The notes beneath the pieces are model-generated. The model saw nothing but the letters and a program-made list of their open reading frames with translations, did not search any database and was not told the DNA's origin. Positions 5,452 to 42,921 of a stretch of 56,043 nt of DNA are shown piece after piece. The first letter of the stretch is position 1, and every line of letters starts with the position of its first letter. A program made the position numbers and the translations under genes. This DNA is from Acidimicrobiia bacterium (GTDB lineage: Bacteria; Actinomycetota; Acidimicrobiia; Spongiisociales; ZC4RG35), in assembly GCA_025928935.1 (NCBI GenBank), contig JAICNB010000010.1, forward strand, positions 1 to 56,043, in the 5' to 3' direction.

Positions 5452-7086
5452 TCAGAGCTCCATCACGACCGGCACGATCACCGGCCGTCGTGCCGTCTCG
5501 GCGCGTATGACCCGGCCTGCCGCCTGCCGGATCGTCTTCTGGAGCTCACCGATGTCGGACCGCCCCGAAGCATGCTCGACGATGGCTTCCTTGACTGCAT
5601 CGGCCGCCTTGTCGAGGACGGCACTCGGGTCATCCATCAGTCCGTGGCTGTCCATGTCGGGGCCGTAGACCACCTCGCCGGTGTCATGGTCGATCCCGAC
5701 GGTCACCACGACCACTCCCTCATCCGCCAGATGCGACCGGTCGCGCAGGACCGCCGACTGAACGTCGCCCACCGATGACCCATCCAGGTACACGAAACCG
5801 GCAGGGACTGCCCTGCGCAGCACCTGGGTTTTCTTGCCGTTCAAGATCACCCGGTCACCGTCCTCGAGGACGTCGACATGCCGCACCCCCATGCTCCGGG
5901 CCAGTTCGGCGTGGGCGTGGAGATGGCGGTACTCGCCGTGGACCGGGACGAAGGCCTGTGGCCGAAGCAGGTTGAGGAACGTCAGCAGCTCGTCCCGGTT
6001 GGCGTGGCCGGAGACGTGGACAGGGGCGTTGGTCCCGTGAACCACTTTGGCCCCTCGCCGGGTCAGGTTGGAGATCACCTTCGATACCGCTCGCTCGTTC
6101 CCGGGAATCGGCTTGGCGGAGATGAGCACCGTGTCCCCCTCGCCGACCTCCACGAACTTGTGCTGCCCCTGGGACATCAACGAGAGGGCGGCGAAGGGCT
6201 CTCCCTGGCTGCCGGTCGTGATCAGCAGTTGCTGCTCGGGAGGGAGCTCGTCCATGTCCTTGATGTCGACCACCGATTTCTGAGGTATGTCGAGTGACTT
6301 CAGATCGGTGGCGATGGTGGTGTTCCGGTGCATGGAGCGGCCGAAGAAGGCGATCTTCCGCCCATTGGCTATCCCGGCGCCGGCGATCTGTTGGATGCGG
6401 TGGATGTGTGACGCGAAACATGCCGCGATGACCCGGCCACTCGCGTCCCGGATGGCGTCGGAGATGGGCTGGCCCACCGAGCTCTCCGAGGGCTCGAACC
6501 CGGGCCGCTCCGCGTTGGTGGAGTCGGCCATGAGCAGCCTCACCCCCCTCCTGCCCAGCGTGGCGAAGGCAGGAAGGTCGGTGGGCACTCCATCGATCGG
6601 GGTGGGATCGAGCTTGAAGTCGCCCGAATGGACGATGACGCCTTCCGGCGTCTCCAGAGCGACTGCACTGGCGTCCGGCACCGAGTGGCTGACCGGGATC
6701 AGCTGGAAGCGAAACGGGCCCTGATCCACCCACTTCTTGACCGGCACATGACGGAGATCGCCCTCGACCCCCAGTTCGTCGATCCGGGCCCGGGCCAGTT
6801 CGATGGTCAGCCTGGTGCCGAGGACCGGCACGTTCACGTCCCTGAGGAAGTAGGCCAGGGCGCCGGTGTGATCCTCGTGCCCGTGGGTCAGGATCACACA
6901 CTCCACGTCATCGCTCCGCTCCACCAGCCACGACCAGTCGGGGAAGACGAGATCGACTCCGAGCATGTCCTCCTCGGGGAACATGAGCCCGCAATCGATC
7001 AGGGCGATACGACCCTCGATCTCGATCGCCGCGGAGTTACGGCCGATCTCACCGAGACCCCCCAGAAAGGTGATGGAGACGCTCAC
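5452..7086 (-). CDS. rnj: Ribonuclease J (metallo-beta-lactamase/beta-CASP RNase)
   Basis: RNase J is a cytoplasmic endonuclease and 5'-3' exonuclease that matures and degrades RNA. The 544-residue length fits the family. The zinc-binding motif is THGHEDH (His68, His70, Asp72, His73), with later metal and beta-CASP elements such as SHSVPDA, MADSTNAERPG, CFASHIHRIQQI and HVSGHANRDEL. The GTG start overlaps the dapA TGA as GTGA. The frame stays open 52 codons further upstream, but that part runs through dapA and is Gly/Arg/Pro-rich shadow. The dapA-rnj pairing is common in Actinobacteria and other Gram-positive bacteria (family knowledge). Confidence 0.96.
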   Translation of the reverse strand: MSVSITFLGGLGEIGRNSAAIEIEGRIALIDCGLMFPEEDMLGVDLVFPDWSWLVERSDDVECVILTHGHEDHTGALAYFLRDVNVPVLGTRLTIELARARIDELGVEGDLRHVPVKKWVDQGPFRFQLIPVSHSVPDASAVALETPEGVIVHSGDFKLDPTPIDGVPTDLPAFATLGRRGVRLLMADSTNAERPGFEPSESSVGQPISDAIRDASGRVIAACFASHIHRIQQIAGAGIANGRKIAFFGRSMHRNTTIATDLKSLDIPQKSVVDIKDMDELPPEQQLLITTGSQGEPFAALSLMSQGQHKFVEVGEGDTVLISAKPIPGNERAVSKVISNLTRRGAKVVHGTNAPVHVSGHANRDELLTFLNLLRPQAFVPVHGEYRHLHAHAELARSMGVRHVDVLEDGDRVILNGKKTQVLRRAVPAGFVYLDGSSVGDVQSAVLRDRSHLADEGVVVVTVGIDHDTGEVVYGPDMDSHGLMDDPSAVLDKAADAVKEAIVEHASGRSDIGELQKTIRQAAGRVIRAETARRPVIVPVVMEL

Positions 7087-7976
7087 AGACCCTGGACGGC
7101 GCCGACGGCCTTCTCGACCGCCGCCAGTGTCTCCTCGGACGCGGGCACCAGTGGGAGCCGGACCTCGCCCACAGGCTCCCATAGCCGGTCCATCGCCCCT
7201 TTCACCGGGGTGGGGTTCGTCTCGAGGAAACATGCCTCGCAAAGGGGCAAGAGCAGATGATGGAGGCGCCTCGCCTCGGCGAGGTCTGCGTCCAGGGCGG
7301 CGTGGACCATCGCAGACACCGCGCGGCCTGCGAGATGGGAGACGACCGACACCACCCCGACCGCACCCACCGCCATCATCGGCCAGGTGAGCGAGTCCTG
7401 CCCGCAGTACACCGCCAGGCCGGGAATCCGGTTGATGGTGTGCCCTGAGAACTCGAGGTCGAGCACGGCGTCCTTGACCGCCACGACGTTCTCATGCTCG
7501 GCCAGACGGGCCATGGTCTCGATTTCGATCCTGGTCCCGGTCCGCCCGGGGATGTTGTAGAGCATGACCGGCAGACCCACGTCGGCGATCGCAGAGAAAT
7601 GCTCGACCAATCCCGCCTGATCGGGCCGGTTGTAATAGGGCGTCACCGCCAGAGCCCCATGACAGCCGATCTCGGCAGCTCTCTCGGTAAGTTCGATCGA
7701 CTCGACCGTGTTGTAGGTGCCGGTCCCGGCTATCACCCGGGTGTCCTTCTCTGCCACCGCGTCGACGACGGTCCTGTACAGCGACACCTTCTCATCATCG
7801 CTGAGAGTGGGTGATTCACCGGTAGTACCGGTGACCACCAGGGTGTCGCTGCCATTGTCCGAGAGGAACCGGGCCAATCGCCAGGCCCTCTCGTGGTCGA
7901 CGTCACCGGATGCGGTGAAGGGCGTGATCATGGCGGTGGCGACATGGCCGAAGGGGGCCGTCGTCGGTGATCTCAC
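7083..7976 (-). CDS. dapA: 4-hydroxy-tetrahydrodipicolinate synthase
   Basis: DapA condenses pyruvate with aspartate semialdehyde, the first committed step to diaminopimelate and lysine. It has 297 residues. Family marks are GTTGESPTLSDDEK near residue 48, AVTPYYNRPDQ, the catalytic Tyr in MLYNIPGRTG, and the Schiff-base Lys in VVAVKDA near residue 165. The C-terminal domain LETNPTPVKGAMDRLW is also typical. It is the first gene of dapA-rnj and is divergent from the kinase-LLM gene, with only 40 bp between them for both promoters. Confidence 0.96.
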   Translation of the reverse strand: MRSPTTAPFGHVATAMITPFTASGDVDHERAWRLARFLSDNGSDTLVVTGTTGESPTLSDDEKVSLYRTVVDAVAEKDTRVIAGTGTYNTVESIELTERAAEIGCHGALAVTPYYNRPDQAGLVEHFSAIADVGLPVMLYNIPGRTGTRIEIETMARLAEHENVVAVKDAVLDLEFSGHTINRIPGLAVYCGQDSLTWPMMAVGAVGVVSVVSHLAGRAVSAMVHAALDADLAEARRLHHLLLPLCEACFLETNPTPVKGAMDRLWEPVGEVRLPLVPASEETLAAVEKAVGAVQGL

Positions 7977-8016: not shown

Positions 8017-9504
8017 ATGGACCTTCGTCTACCCATGCCATGCCTCGTGGTCGTGTGCGGCCCGTCTGGATCGGGGAAGAGCACCTGGGCGGCCGGGACG
8101 TTCCAGGAGAGCCAAATCGTCTCCTCGGATCGGATCAGGGGGATGGTCGGAGCCGGGGAGGATGACCAACAGGCGGGCACTGCCGCCTTCTCGATCCTCG
8201 AGCAAGTGGTCTCAGAGCGAATGAGGCGTGGCCTCACGACGGTGATCGACACCCTCGGGATGGACGCCGACAAACGTCGCAGATGGGTGGGCATCGCCCA
8301 CGAGGCCGGGATCCCGGCCTACGCAGTCCTCTTCGACACACCCGCCGTGGAGATCCGTGCCCGTAACTCGGCGAGGGCCCGACCGATACCAAAGACGGTG
8401 CTCGACAAGCAGCTGAGCCGGTTTCGGGCCGTCCGCGGCGAGATCGAGCAGGAGGGATTCGACCAGGTCCTGACAGAGCAACCGATGGTCATGGTCACGC
8501 CATCTGTCGTCCCAGCCCGAAGCCGTCCGGCGCCTGAGCCCGCTGCTCCCACCGCACCGCACCGGTTCGGCCTGGTGGTGAACCGGTTCGACTGGGGCGG
8601 CCCGGAGGTGCTGGCCACGAATCTCGCCTCGATCGCTCACAGGGCGGAGGCCGCCGGGTTCCACGACCTCTGGGTCATGGATCATTTCCGCCAGATACCC
8701 AGAGTGGGCCGGGCATGGGAGGACATCCCCGAGGCATACGTTTCGTTGTCGTTCCTCGCCGGGGTGACCCGGACCATCGGGTTGGGCGCCCTGGTGACCG
8801 CCATCGGGCACCGTCACCCTGTGGTTCTCGGCAAGATGGTCGCCACCCTCGATGTCCTCAGCGGTGGCCGGGCCGTTCTCGGCCTCGGGATCGGCTGGGA
8901 CCGGACAGAGCAGGAGGGATACGGGATCCCATTCCTGCCGGTCCGGCAGCGCTACGACTTGCTCGAGGACACGCTGAAGATGCTGCCGCTGCTCTGGGGC
9001 AAGGGCTCGCCTTCGTTCGAAGGCGTGACCTTCTCCGCCCCCGAGCTGACTTGTTACCCCCGGCCCATCCGGGAGCACATACCCATATTGATCGGGGGCT
9101 CCGGCGAGAGGCGGACTCTCCGGCTGGTGGCGCGCTACGCCGACGCCTGCAATCTCTTCGGGAGGCCCGACGTGATACGACGCAAGGTCGAGGTGCTCCA
9201 TGGCCACTGCTCCGAGATCGATCGTGACCCCGACGAGATCGAGGTGACCCACCTGGTCGACGTGATGGTCGCCCCGGATCGAGAGGCGCTCCGGGAACGG
9301 GTCGAACGACTTCGCGGCCGGAGCACCACCGCCGAGGCTTTCATGGCCCGAAACAATGCGGGGGTGGTCGAGGACCAACTGGAGCACTTCGCCGCCTATC
9401 ACCAGGCGGGGGCAAATCATTCGATGGTCGTGCTGCCCGACGCCCATCTGGAAGGGAGCATCGAGACCTTCGGCCTGGTGATCGGAGCCATGGCCCACAC
9501 TTAG
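8017..9504 (+). CDS. Fusion of a P-loop kinase-like ATPase and an F420-type LLM oxidoreductase
   Basis: This 495-residue protein joins two domains. Residues 1-160 form a P-loop NTPase of the AAA_33/polynucleotide-kinase type: Walker A VVCGPSGSGKSTW at about residues 12-24, then SSDRIRGMVG, TTVIDTLGMDADKRRRW and a lid-like ARNSARARPIPKTVL. A Pro/Ala-rich linker at about 165-183 follows. Residues 184-495 are a luciferase-like TIM barrel resembling the TIGR03560 F420-dependent family (RFGLVVNRFDWGG, GGRAVLGLGIGWD, HIPILIGGSGERRTL). The frame is open further upstream, but the ATG at 8017 is preferred since earlier codons lie in dapA. The next gene starts 9 bp downstream. Both halves look intact. 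The substrate of each is unknown, and F420 rather than FMN use is inferred from the family. Confidence 0.85.
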   Translation: MDLRLPMPCLVVVCGPSGSGKSTWAAGTFQESQIVSSDRIRGMVGAGEDDQQAGTAAFSILEQVVSERMRRGLTTVIDTLGMDADKRRRWVGIAHEAGIPAYAVLFDTPAVEIRARNSARARPIPKTVLDKQLSRFRAVRGEIEQEGFDQVLTEQPMVMVTPSVVPARSRPAPEPAAPTAPHRFGLVVNRFDWGGPEVLATNLASIAHRAEAAGFHDLWVMDHFRQIPRVGRAWEDIPEAYVSLSFLAGVTRTIGLGALVTAIGHRHPVVLGKMVATLDVLSGGRAVLGLGIGWDRTEQEGYGIPFLPVRQRYDLLEDTLKMLPLLWGKGSPSFEGVTFSAPELTCYPRPIREHIPILIGGSGERRTLRLVARYADACNLFGRPDVIRRKVEVLHGHCSEIDRDPDEIEVTHLVDVMVAPDREALRERVERLRGRSTTAEAFMARNNAGVVEDQLEHFAAYHQAGANHSMVVLPDAHLEGSIETFGLVIGAMAHT

Positions 9505-9513
9505 ACTGGCCAC

Positions 9514-10098
<585 letters not shown>

Positions 10099-15401: not shown

Positions 15402-16307
15402 TCATCTCAACAGTGTGAGCACCTCGGCCAGCTCGGCCACGGCGGGGGCGTCGATCGGATCCAGCACGACCTGGATGTGGGAGATCCCCATCGCGCCGAA
15501 TCGGGCCAGAGACTCGGCCATCTCCTGAGGCGAGCCCGTGATCGGCTCGACGTCGGGTCGCTCGCTGCTGCCGGCGATACGGCCCTTGCCGCGGCTCAGC
15601 CGGACCAGGACGGCCACGGTTCGTGCGATCTCTCCCGGATCGCGTCCCACCTCCCTGCACGCATCGTCGACTGTCTCCATCAGGGGGGCGACACCCTCGG
15701 GCCGGTTGTCGAAACCGGTGTACCAGCTGTTCCAAAGGTCGACATGGGGAGCGGCGATACGAAGCATGCGAGGACCGTTGGAACCGATCAAGAGCGGCAT
15801 GTCGGCCCGGGCCCGAGGCAGGAGCTCCATCTGCAGGTGTGTGTAGAAGCGCCCCTGGAAATCGATCGAACCCTCTCTGATCAACGTGCTGACCACGACG
15901 AATGCCTCCTCGAACCTCGACACCCGACTGTCGAAGGGGAATCCGAATGCCTCGTACTCGACGCGGTTCCAGCCGGCTCCCAGCCCGAGGACGAGACGGC
16001 CTCCACTGATGTCGTCGACAGTGGCCGCCTTCTTGGCGATCATCGCCGGGTTGTGGAAGGAGGTCGCAGCCACCAGCGGACCGATGAGGACTCGCTCGGT
16101 CGCCTCTCCTAGAGCCGCCAGCGTCGACCAGGCCTCGAGGGGGCCACGCGCCCCGGTCAGGGGGTCACGGAAGAGCAGATGGTCACCGACCCAGATCGAA
16201 TCGAACCCCGTCTCTTCGACGGTGGTGGCGATCTCCCTCACTTCACGCCAGGGGACCTCTCGCTCGACTTCGGGCAGTTGTATGCCAACCTTCATCGGTT
16301 CAGTCAT
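15402..16307 (-). CDS. LLM-class F420-dependent oxidoreductase
   Basis: This luciferase-like TIM-barrel enzyme has 301 residues from the ATG at 16307 (MTEPMKVGIQLPEVER). Family marks are IWVGDHLLFRDP, ATSFHNPAMIAKKAATVDDISGGRLVLGLGAGWN, the usual flavin-binding FGFPF segment, and PLLIGSNGPRMLRIAA. Such proteins in Actinobacteria usually use F420 (family knowledge) on varied substrates. An ATG seven codons upstream is also possible. It is divergent from glpD and leads the LLM-VOC-MBL operon. Confidence 0.9.
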   Translation of the reverse strand: MTEPMKVGIQLPEVEREVPWREVREIATTVEETGFDSIWVGDHLLFRDPLTGARGPLEAWSTLAALGEATERVLIGPLVAATSFHNPAMIAKKAATVDDISGGRLVLGLGAGWNRVEYEAFGFPFDSRVSRFEEAFVVVSTLIREGSIDFQGRFYTHLQMELLPRARADMPLLIGSNGPRMLRIAAPHVDLWNSWYTGFDNRPEGVAPLMETVDDACREVGRDPGEIARTVAVLVRLSRGKGRIAGSSERPDVEPITGSPQEMAESLARFGAMGISHIQVVLDPIDAPAVAELAEVLTLLR

Positions 16308-39925: not shown

Positions 39926-41788
39926 CTACGACACGCGATCGAGGATGTCGTATGTCGTCGATCGCAGGGCAGGTCGCCGTCCGGCCGCCTCGATCACCTC
40001 ACGGAACTGCTGTGGGGTGACTTCCTGCCCGTGGGCAGCCCCGGCGGAACGGGTGATGATCTCGCCCATGAGGGTGCCGCCCAGGTCGTTGCAGCCGGCG
40101 TCGAGGAGCCTGCGGCCACCGTCCAGGCCGAGCTTGACCCAAGACGCCTGGATGTTCGGCACCAGGCCGTCGAAGGCAATCCGGGATACGGCGTGGATCA
40201 GCACCACCTCGTCCCAGGTGGGGCCGGGACGCGACCGTCCGCGCAGGTATATGGGCGAGCCCATGTGAACGAAAGGCAGTGGGACCATCTCGGTGAACCC
40301 GCCCGTCCTGCGCTGGATCTCGCGTATCACCTGGAGGTGCTTGGCCCAGGACCTCGGATGGTCGATGTGGCCGAACATGATGGTCGAGGTCGCCCGCAGG
40401 CCGAGCTCATGGGCTGTGATCATCACTTCTGCCCACTGCGAGGTGCGGATCTTGTCCGGGCAGAGATGGGCTCGCACGTCGTCGTCGAGGATCTCGGCGG
40501 CGGTACCGGGAAGAGTCCCCAGCCCGGCCTCCTTCAGTTCCTCGAGGAAGCGCCGCACCGGGATGCCGAGCGTCTCGGCGCCCTGCCAGACCTCGAGCGG
40601 TGTGAAACCGTGGATGTGCATGTCGGGCAGCTCCGCCTTGATCGCGTTGACCACGTCCACGTAGAAGTTCCCGGTGAAGTCGGGATGGATCCCACCCTGG
40701 AGGGTCACCTCGGTCGCACCCCGGTCCCAGGCTTCCACTGCCCGCTCCACGATCTCGTCCAGCCCCATCAGGTACGGCTCGCCCCGCAGGTTGAGGCTGC
40801 GCGGGCCCTTGGAGAAGGCACAGAAGCCACACCTGAAATAGCAGAGATTGGTGTAGTTGATGTTCCGGTTCACCACATATGTGACTGTGTCCCCGACAGC
40901 TCGCTCCCGGAGGACATCGGCGACCTGAGCAACTGCGTCGACCTGGTCACCTCGCGCCCGGAACAGTGCCTCGAGCTCATCGATCGTCGGAGGTGTCCCG
41001 GCGAGGGACCGCTCCAGGATCGGGGCGAGGTCCCCTGCCGACGAGGGATACGCGGGGGCGGACCCCACCGTCCAGGACCGATCGAGCCATTCGGCAGAGA
41101 GGCGACTCGCCGGAACCGGTGGCGCCAGGTCCTTCCCCGGAGCCCATTCGTGCCTGGGACGGGCCGCCCCCGAGCCGTCCACCTGTCCCAGCCATGCCAT
41201 GAACACCTCTGCGGGGAGAGTCTGACGTGCCTCATCGATCTCGATCCCGAGAGGGAAGGCGGTCCGTTCCACCAGCTTCTTGCCGACCAGTGCCTTCCTC
41301 AGTTCGCCGATCCCCTCCGGCTCCCAGTCACGTAGCAGGAGGTCGGTAGCGCCCATCTCGACAGCCTTGGTGGCCTGGGCGACATCGTCGACGAAAACGG
41401 ATACCGCAGTGTCGACTCCGGGCAGGGCGGCGAGGCCGGCCATCACCGATGTCTCGGATCGGGTGGAGCGGAGATAACGCGCCCCGGATCGGGCCACCGC
41501 GTCGAGGATGGACTCCCTGCTCCCCTCGGCGACCACGGTGATCCGCCAGGGGGGAACACCCTGGGCGGCGAGAGTCAGTGCCTCGACCGGCTTCACCACC
41601 CAGGCGGCGGGACCAACATCGCCTATCGACTCGGCCACCACCATGAGGCCAGCCTGGTGACCGGCTGCGATCTCGACCGCAGTTGGTGAAGCCATCTCGA
41701 CGGTGGTGGTCCCCTCCCGGCGCCGGCTGTTCGCGGTGGGCTCGGCCAGCTGGCCGGCGGGTCGGACCCTGAGGAAAGTGATGGTCAT
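39926..41788 (-). CDS. cofH: CofH subunit of 7,8-didemethyl-8-hydroxy-5-deazariboflavin synthase, with a large N-terminal extension
   Basis: CofH is a radical-SAM enzyme that joins tyrosine-derived and flavin precursors for coenzyme F420. The core from about residue 235 shows VGDTVTYVVNRNINYTNLCYF with the cluster motif CYFRCGFC near residue 315, then EVTLQGGIHPDFTGNFYVDVV and LGTLPGTAAEILDD. Residues 210-300 match the usual linker before the CofH core in FbiC. The first ~210 residues (WVVKPVEALTLAAQGVPPW, ATKAVEMGATDLLLRDW) match no family I recognise. The ATG overlaps the cofG TGA as ATGA. At 620 residues it is far longer than a normal CofH (~380). Confidence 0.9.
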   Translation of the reverse strand: MTITFLRVRPAGQLAEPTANSRRREGTTTVEMASPTAVEIAAGHQAGLMVVAESIGDVGPAAWVVKPVEALTLAAQGVPPWRITVVAEGSRESILDAVARSGARYLRSTRSETSVMAGLAALPGVDTAVSVFVDDVAQATKAVEMGATDLLLRDWEPEGIGELRKALVGKKLVERTAFPLGIEIDEARQTLPAEVFMAWLGQVDGSGAARPRHEWAPGKDLAPPVPASRLSAEWLDRSWTVGSAPAYPSSAGDLAPILERSLAGTPPTIDELEALFRARGDQVDAVAQVADVLRERAVGDTVTYVVNRNINYTNLCYFRCGFCAFSKGPRSLNLRGEPYLMGLDEIVERAVEAWDRGATEVTLQGGIHPDFTGNFYVDVVNAIKAELPDMHIHGFTPLEVWQGAETLGIPVRRFLEELKEAGLGTLPGTAAEILDDDVRAHLCPDKIRTSQWAEVMITAHELGLRATSTIMFGHIDHPRSWAKHLQVIREIQRRTGGFTEMVPLPFVHMGSPIYLRGRSRPGPTWDEVVLIHAVSRIAFDGLVPNIQASWVKLGLDGGRRLLDAGCNDLGGTLMGEIITRSAGAAHGQEVTPQQFREVIEAAGRRPALRSTTYDILDRVS

Positions 41789-42921
41789 CGCGCTCCAGTC
41801 TTCTCATGGACGAGGGCCAGCCCGTCGCCATCGGCAGCGGCCACCACGTCGGCGTACAGAACGGGGTCGATCCAGTCGGGTTCGATGTACTCGGGGTAGA
41901 CAGGTAGACGAGGCCGCAACTCGAAACCGGCTTCCTCGGTCCTCCCGCTCAACTCGTCGAGATGCGGCCAGGGCGCCTCGGGATTCACCCAATCGATCGT
42001 GAGCGGGGAGACACCGCCCCAGTCGTTGATCCCGGCATCGAGGTATATCTCGAACTGCTCGGTGAGGTTGGGCGGGACCTGCACGTTGGCCTCGGCCCCG
42101 AGGATCCACCTGGCCAGGGCCACCACCCGGGCGAAGCATGGGGGCACCGGCTCGGCCGAGTGACGCATCGGGGTGTCCGCCTTGGCCCTGAAGTTCTGGA
42201 TGATCACCTCCTGGATGGCCCCGGTGTCCCCGGCCAGGCCACGCAGGGCGAACAGGGAATCGACGATCTCGTCGTGGCTCTCACCGATCCCCACCAGGAT
42301 GCCGGTGGTGAAGGGAACCCGGGCTCGCCCCGCGGCCTCGATCGTGGCCACGCGAGCCGAGGGGTCCTTGGATCTGGTGCCGTGATGGGGCATCCCCGGC
42401 TCCATCAAACGGGGCGAGATGTTCTCCAGCATCATCCCCATCGATGGGTTGCTGGGACGAAGGAGCAGCATCTCGCCCTCGGTGAGAAGGCCGGGATTGG
42501 CATGAGGGAAGAGGGTCGTCTCCTCCCGGACCAGCTCCGACATCTCGGCGACATACGCGATGGTCGAATCCAGGCCCCGGCCGCCCAGGAAGGCGGCCGC
42601 CTGGGGCCAGCGCTCCTCAGGCCGGTCGCCGAGTGTGAACAAGGCCTCCGTGCAGCCACGCTCCTCCCCTGCCCTGGCAATCGCCAGGACCTCCTCAGGC
42701 TCCAGGTACATGCCTCCCGCCCCGGGGGGCTTGGCGAAGGTGCAATAGGTGCAGCGGTCCCGGCACAGGGTGGTGAGCGGTATGAACACCTTGCGGCTAT
42801 AGGTGACGTTTCGGCCCCGTCCCTCGTCACGAAGAGCCCGGGCGTGTTCGAACAGCGGTCCGTCGGACACCGCGCCTTCCAGGTATCGAAGGGCCAGTTC
42901 GGGGTCGGGCTGAGGGTGCAT
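41785..42921 (-). CDS. cofG: CofG subunit of 7,8-didemethyl-8-hydroxy-5-deazariboflavin synthase
   Basis: CofG is the radical-SAM partner of CofH in F420 synthesis. It has 378 residues. The cluster motif is LCRDRCTYCTFAK near residue 58, followed by MYLEPEEVLAIARAGEERGC, NPSMGMMLENISPRL, PFTTGILVGIGESHDEIVDSL and NDWGGVSPLTIDWVNP. The C-terminus EPDWIDPVLYADVVAAADGDG matches the end of the CofG half of fused FbiC proteins. Actinobacteria usually carry a single FbiC; here the two halves are separate overlapping genes. It follows the SDR gene by 17 bp. Confidence 0.95.
   Translation of the reverse strand: MHPQPDPELALRYLEGAVSDGPLFEHARALRDEGRGRNVTYSRKVFIPLTTLCRDRCTYCTFAKPPGAGGMYLEPEEVLAIARAGEERGCTEALFTLGDRPEERWPQAAAFLGGRGLDSTIAYVAEMSELVREETTLFPHANPGLLTEGEMLLLRPSNPSMGMMLENISPRLMEPGMPHHGTRSKDPSARVATIEAAGRARVPFTTGILVGIGESHDEIVDSLFALRGLAGDTGAIQEVIIQNFRAKADTPMRHSAEPVPPCFARVVALARWILGAEANVQVPPNLTEQFEIYLDAGINDWGGVSPLTIDWVNPEAPWPHLDELSGRTEEAGFELRPRLPVYPEYIEPDWIDPVLYADVVAAADGDGLALVHEKTGAR

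Follow-up and report, generated by a model that had tools for sequence, protein, structure and literature searches.

A Pnkp-type kinase domain and a luciferase-like oxidoreductase barrel in a single protein of Actinomycetota

One gene of an Acidimicrobiia bacterium (GenBank assembly GCA_025928935.1, contig JAICNB010000010.1; the whole 56,043-nucleotide stretch analysed is called the window here) appears to encode two enzymes in one chain. This raises the question of whether the two halves truly belong together and, if so, what a kinase and a redox enzyme might do as one protein. The initial annotation had proposed that a kinase-like domain precedes a TIGR03560-like barrel in one 495-residue chain with the key motifs of both halves intact, and it offered a wider search for the architecture, structure prediction and a look for a start codon used between the halves as ways of checking this. 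The data below directly support one continuous chain, its distribution, the descent of both halves, the conservation of active-site residues and purifying selection. The parts of the gene are as follows:

8017–9504, + strand: fused kinase–LLM (luciferase-like) oxidoreductase gene, with ATG at 8017 and a stop codon that ends at 9504; 495 amino acids, from translation and family matches
8017–8472, + strand: Pnkp-type P-loop kinase domain, residues 1–152 (TIGR04075, AAA_33, PDB 4gp6)
8059–8085, + strand: P-loop GPSGSGKST, residues 15–23 (K21 in 62/62 fused kinases)
8128–8139, + strand: acceptor-site motif D38-x-x-R41 (D38 and R41 each in 62/62 fused kinases)
8473–8562, + strand: variable linker, residues about 153–182 (no conserved Met; pLDDT 73–78 at residues 161–180)
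8563–9501, + strand: LLM barrel of the TIGR03560 family, residues about 183–495 (family matches; Z 33.1 to F420-dependent Mer)

The N-terminal half belongs to Pfam AAA_33, a broad family of small P-loop kinases (residues 10–137, 3.7e-27, 95.8 bits against a cut-off of 27). It also matches the NCBIfam model TIGR04075 (bacter_Pnkp, a polynucleotide kinase of RNA repair) over residues 1–152 (9.5e-35), and this match covers model positions 1–153 of 851 only; its 120 bits do not qualify the protein as a full bacterial Pnkp, the TIGR04075 kinase-phosphatase-ligase chain (>750 bits). The C-terminal half matches Pfam Bac_luciferase (residues 200–480, 3.6e-50) and narrowly passes the NCBIfam family TIGR03560 (residues 195–411, 234.7 bits against the curated cut-off of 231.4), a family that every one of the 34 aligned fusions also matches (E up to 1e-10, an E-value threshold rather than the bit cut-off). 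At full length the protein is single-copy in the window's genome, where 18 further places match the LLM half only; one of these is a second LLM-type protein in the window (15465–16250, − strand), 34% identical to residues 200–472. An AlphaFold2 model, built from an alignment of the window protein with related loci, has a mean pLDDT of 95.7 and a pTM of 0.91, and residues 161–180 alone drop to 73–78 (in ten-residue blocks). This pTM suggests that the domains of the fused chain have a defined packing.

The wider search found both halves in a single open frame at 73 fetched loci (some genomes were reached twice), cultured strains among them, so that the two-domain chain of the initial annotation is confirmed by one open reading frame, two family matches and many loci alike. 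An alignment query found 446 relatives, of which 80 loci were kept; a single-protein query over the genome contigs gave no match. Fused relatives are present in 18 of 60 near genomes and, at E up to 1e-70, in 29 of 296 genomes of the class and 10 of 396 genomes of the phylum, each count taking in the window's own genome. One of the 18 near-genome cases (G050) is cut by a contig end, with its N-terminus on another contig. Named isolates that carry the fusion belong to Kineosporia, Phycicoccus, Pedococcus, Terrabacter, Intrasporangium, Nocardioides and Antrihabitans. Three loci have both halves not in one frame, and none of them breaks at the domain border: L057 lies at a contig edge and breaks near residue 120, L131 shifts frame at residue 228/229, and in L134 a piece starting at residue 278 is inverted. 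One record (L058, SMXW01000030.1) is titled Acidobacteria, and its gene is as similar as that of G012:C53, a member of the window's own family; the title looks wrong.

The idea that these are two separate proteins, or a fusion born in assembly or read from an internal start, draws on the fact that unfused TIGR03560-like proteins are common and on Met157 and Met159 in the linker of the window protein. A Met occurs anywhere in residues 150–186 in 10 of 35 aligned fusions, with no more than four in any one column, and the linker varies in length and letters between relatives, which argues that there is no conserved internal start between the halves. No relative parted at the domain border was seen among those found, and with the halves in one frame at 73 loci and no conserved linker Met this explanation has next to no chance of being right. 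The fusion thus stands: it is no assembly accident but a genuine, ancient join that selection has maintained in many actinobacteria.

Both halves are under purifying selection. The closest relative of the window protein is 84% identical, and dN and dS against it are 0.105 and 0.55 for the kinase, 0.068 and 0.35 for the barrel and 0.22 and 1.29 for the linker; in comparisons with the two closest relatives dN/dS is about 0.1–0.2 for kinase and barrel alike. In a tree of the LLM domain (62 fused and 60 unfused proteins, the unfused rows picked by similarity) the fused proteins are separated from the unfused ones by a branch with SH-aLRT support of 100. The kinase tree groups the 12 Pnkp rows at 97, has long-branched solo rows and needs two changes, not one, to account for the 62 fused rows; a single origin of the fusion therefore rests on the LLM tree. 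The protein is a new combination of known parts; the architecture is absent from the literature found in open-licence PubMed Central, and domain databases probably already list this domain combination.

The ancestry of the kinase half is clear from its nearest solved structures, those of the Clostridium thermocellum Pnkp kinase (PDB 4gp6, E 2.4e-21), with phage and mammalian polynucleotide kinases far behind. All 62 fused kinases have K21, D38, R41, D50, R68 and D78, among them the P-loop Lys, Asp38 and Arg41 that mark a Pnkp-type kinase domain. Each also carries S or T at position 22; R116 is kept in 58 and R120 in 56, and position 123 is occupied by R in 45 and by K in six. In the C. thermocellum enzyme we take K21 and S22 to serve the donor site, D38 to be the general base, R41 to lie in the acceptor site and R120/R123 to lie in the lid. 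Retention of K21, S/T22, D38, R41 and the lid arginines makes the catalytic core of the fused kinase look active, and the motifs of both halves were rightly described as kept, the active site of the barrel included.

The fused kinases share with the bacterial Pnkp kinase (TIGR04075; C. thermocellum PDB 4gp6, 4jst and 4mde) a full-length domain match, the P-loop, D38, R41, R116, R120 and a similar C-terminal end of the domain, but the fused protein carries an LLM barrel in place of the phosphatase and ligase. Its acceptor surroundings are also different: A79-T80-N/S81 of Pnkp (A79-T80 in 12 of 12 Pnkp rows) has become T/S-L-G/A in most fused kinases (T/S79 in 62 of 62, L80 in 53 of 62), every one of the 62 has G at residue 45, a position that is S, A or C in Pnkp, the lid has a one-residue deletion, and Q51 is kept in 29 and absent in 33 of 62, or about half. 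A full Pnkp was found in one of 38 fusion genomes (G039:C20:26611-29124, 1337 bits, the sole one above the cut-off). The change of A79-T80 in most fused kinases, together with the near lack of full Pnkp in these genomes, makes RNA ends an unlikely substrate, and the fused kinase probably has a new, small acceptor.

The barrel is structurally closest to the F420-dependent methylene-tetrahydromethanopterin reductase Mer (8qpl, Z 33.1, 2.8 Å over 291 residues) in a structure search that barely tested the kinase part. It shares the same barrel with FGD as well (Z 30–32 for FGD entries), whereas identity to Mer and FGD is 18–25%, and those proteins have no kinase and act on other substrates. FMN-dependent LLM enzymes lie within 1–2 Z units of the Mer match, so that FMN and F420 enzymes resemble the fold to about the same degree. 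With F420-dependent LLM oxidoreductases of the TIGR03560 family (Rv1855c type) it has in common, across 18 unfused proteins, invariant residues such as D222, H223, Q226, K273, G289, G291, W294 and E298, and the fused proteins differ from that family in their N-terminal kinase and in the clade-specific W234 and Y347 (36 of 36 fused). There is a precedent for an LLM enzyme paired with a kinase in the riboflavin lyase RcaE (PDB 5w4y, LLM barrel, Z 29.2), which acts in riboflavin breakdown alongside a flavin kinase; there, however, the two are separate proteins, the kinase is of another family and the cofactor is FMN.

The initial annotation took the join to suggest phosphorylation or nucleotide sensing tied to an F420 redox step. 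Of the 38 fusion genomes, 37 have a match to CofD of the F420 pathway with E below 1e-70 (the other, G509, has a weak match only), and in the phylum sample (396 genomes, E up to 1e-30) CofD occurs in all 10 genomes that carry the fusion and in 203 of the 386 that do not (Fisher 0.0022, not corrected for kinship). The two FO synthase proteins, CofH and CofG, are both missing in the same 10 of the 38 genomes, nine of which keep CofD, the exception again being G509. Retention of CofD in nine of these ten suggests that FO may come from outside, that the genes were missed by the search or that the assemblies lack them. Of the earlier proposal the true two-domain chain holds up. Use of F420 by the LLM half is plausible, with the absence of FO synthase from 10 of 38 genomes and the roughly equal nearness of the fold to FMN enzymes speaking against it, and RNA ends are disfavoured as a substrate.

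A coupling of the fusion to loss of FO synthase was considered and set aside. Among CofD-containing genomes of the phylum sample cofH is absent from 7 of the 10 that carry the fusion and from 20 of the 203 that do not (Fisher 2.3e-5), but four of those seven belong to one genus and among the near relatives of the window the difference is flat (3 of 18 fusion genomes against 9 of 42 others); because the link vanishes there and few independent lineages are involved, it is not counted for the main reading. In the phylum sample as a whole, 27 of the 213 actinobacterial genomes with CofD (G013, G142, G143, G154 and others) lack a CofH match at a threshold of E 1e-40; such genomes may depend on outside FO or use another FO synthase. 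The window itself encodes CofH (39944–40978) and CofG (41848–42804) as separate genes in the region 39944–42804 (− strand), and Actinobacteria are described in a passage of a review (PMC8498797) as carrying them fused as FbiC.

Two genes flank the fusion closely:

9514–10098, + strand: AhpC/TSA-Redoxin family gene that starts 9 bases past the stop of the fusion; order kept in 6 of the 7 nearest relatives
7083–7976, − strand: DapA-type (DHDPS) gene, divergent and 40 bases from the start of the fusion; in 7 of the 7 nearest relatives

A cyclophilin gene comes after the Redoxin gene and is found beside the fusion in 7 of the 7 nearest family members, and the DapA-Redoxin-cyclophilin arrangement is limited to these seven. 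No conserved neighbour emerged when flanks of up to 8 kb were compared between the window and 38 named fused loci; what is widely shared is the gene itself and its antisense reading. The pathway is thus not readable from context. For a defence role, PADLOC gives one LLM match (7.5e-11, residues 207–305) and nothing for the kinase. No viral contig encoding a relative was found in a scan that reaches close relatives only, and the matches to viral structures each cover a single half.

These observations are best accommodated by a bifunctional enzyme that would phosphorylate a small hydroxyl compound and carry out a linked deazaflavin redox step, a reading to which we assign a probability of about 0.45. 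We infer an active kinase with a small-molecule substrate, F420 as the cofactor and a link between the two steps. The N-terminal domain would be an ATP-dependent hydroxyl kinase descended from the bacterial Pnkp kinase module; with donor and general-base residues kept and acceptor surroundings altered, it would phosphorylate a small hydroxyl compound and not RNA ends. The LLM barrel would catalyse a hydride transfer that acts on this compound or belongs to the same pathway, with F420 as its most likely cofactor, and the two domains would have been joined once, early in Actinomycetota, and then kept as one chain.

Other explanations share parts of this evidence. The P-loop half might be a nucleotide-sensing domain that binds ATP and gates the redox half with no phosphorylated product; the kept ATP-side residues and the fixed packing suggested by the pTM of the model are consistent with this, yet D38 and R41 on the acceptor side would be needless in a pure sensor and are nonetheless present in every fused kinase, and we regard such a role as unlikely. 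The chain might also be a 5′-OH polynucleotide kinase for the ends of RNA or DNA, to which the LLM half is unrelated or in which it moonlights; the closest solved relatives and the kept D38 and R41 speak for this. Against this, the chain lacks a phosphatase or ligase module, a full Pnkp accompanies it in a single genome, the Pnkp-invariant A79 and T80 are changed in most fused kinases and Q51 is absent in more than half, which together make it very unlikely.

The kinase half could instead phosphorylate the ribityl 5′-OH of FO or riboflavin and so provide FO-5′-phosphate or FMN for the LLM half, and it is in keeping with this that its closest relative is a 5′-OH kinase. We know of no natural FO kinase, however, and nearly all fusion genomes retain CofD, an enzyme that works on this very hydroxyl. 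Laboratory-made FO-5′-phosphate is described, in a passage of the review cited above (PMC8498797), as functioning as a cofactor of F420 enzymes, which favours a cofactor kinase, as does the frequent absence of cofH from fusion genomes across the phylum, but that comparison is flat among near relatives and leans on one genus. On balance a cofactor kinase of this kind seems quite unlikely, and its more specific form, a self-supplying deazaflavin enzyme whose kinase half makes FO-5′-phosphate from free FO for use by the attached LLM half as a second deazaflavin cofactor beside F420, highly improbable.

The fusion links two enzyme classes, most members of which are without a known substrate. Since this physical link has persisted across Actinomycetota, identifying what one half makes would give a lead to what the other half acts on, and with it to a role for the orphan F420-type family TIGR03560. 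If it were true that the kinase acts on FO or riboflavin, the result would be a new natural flavin-like cofactor.
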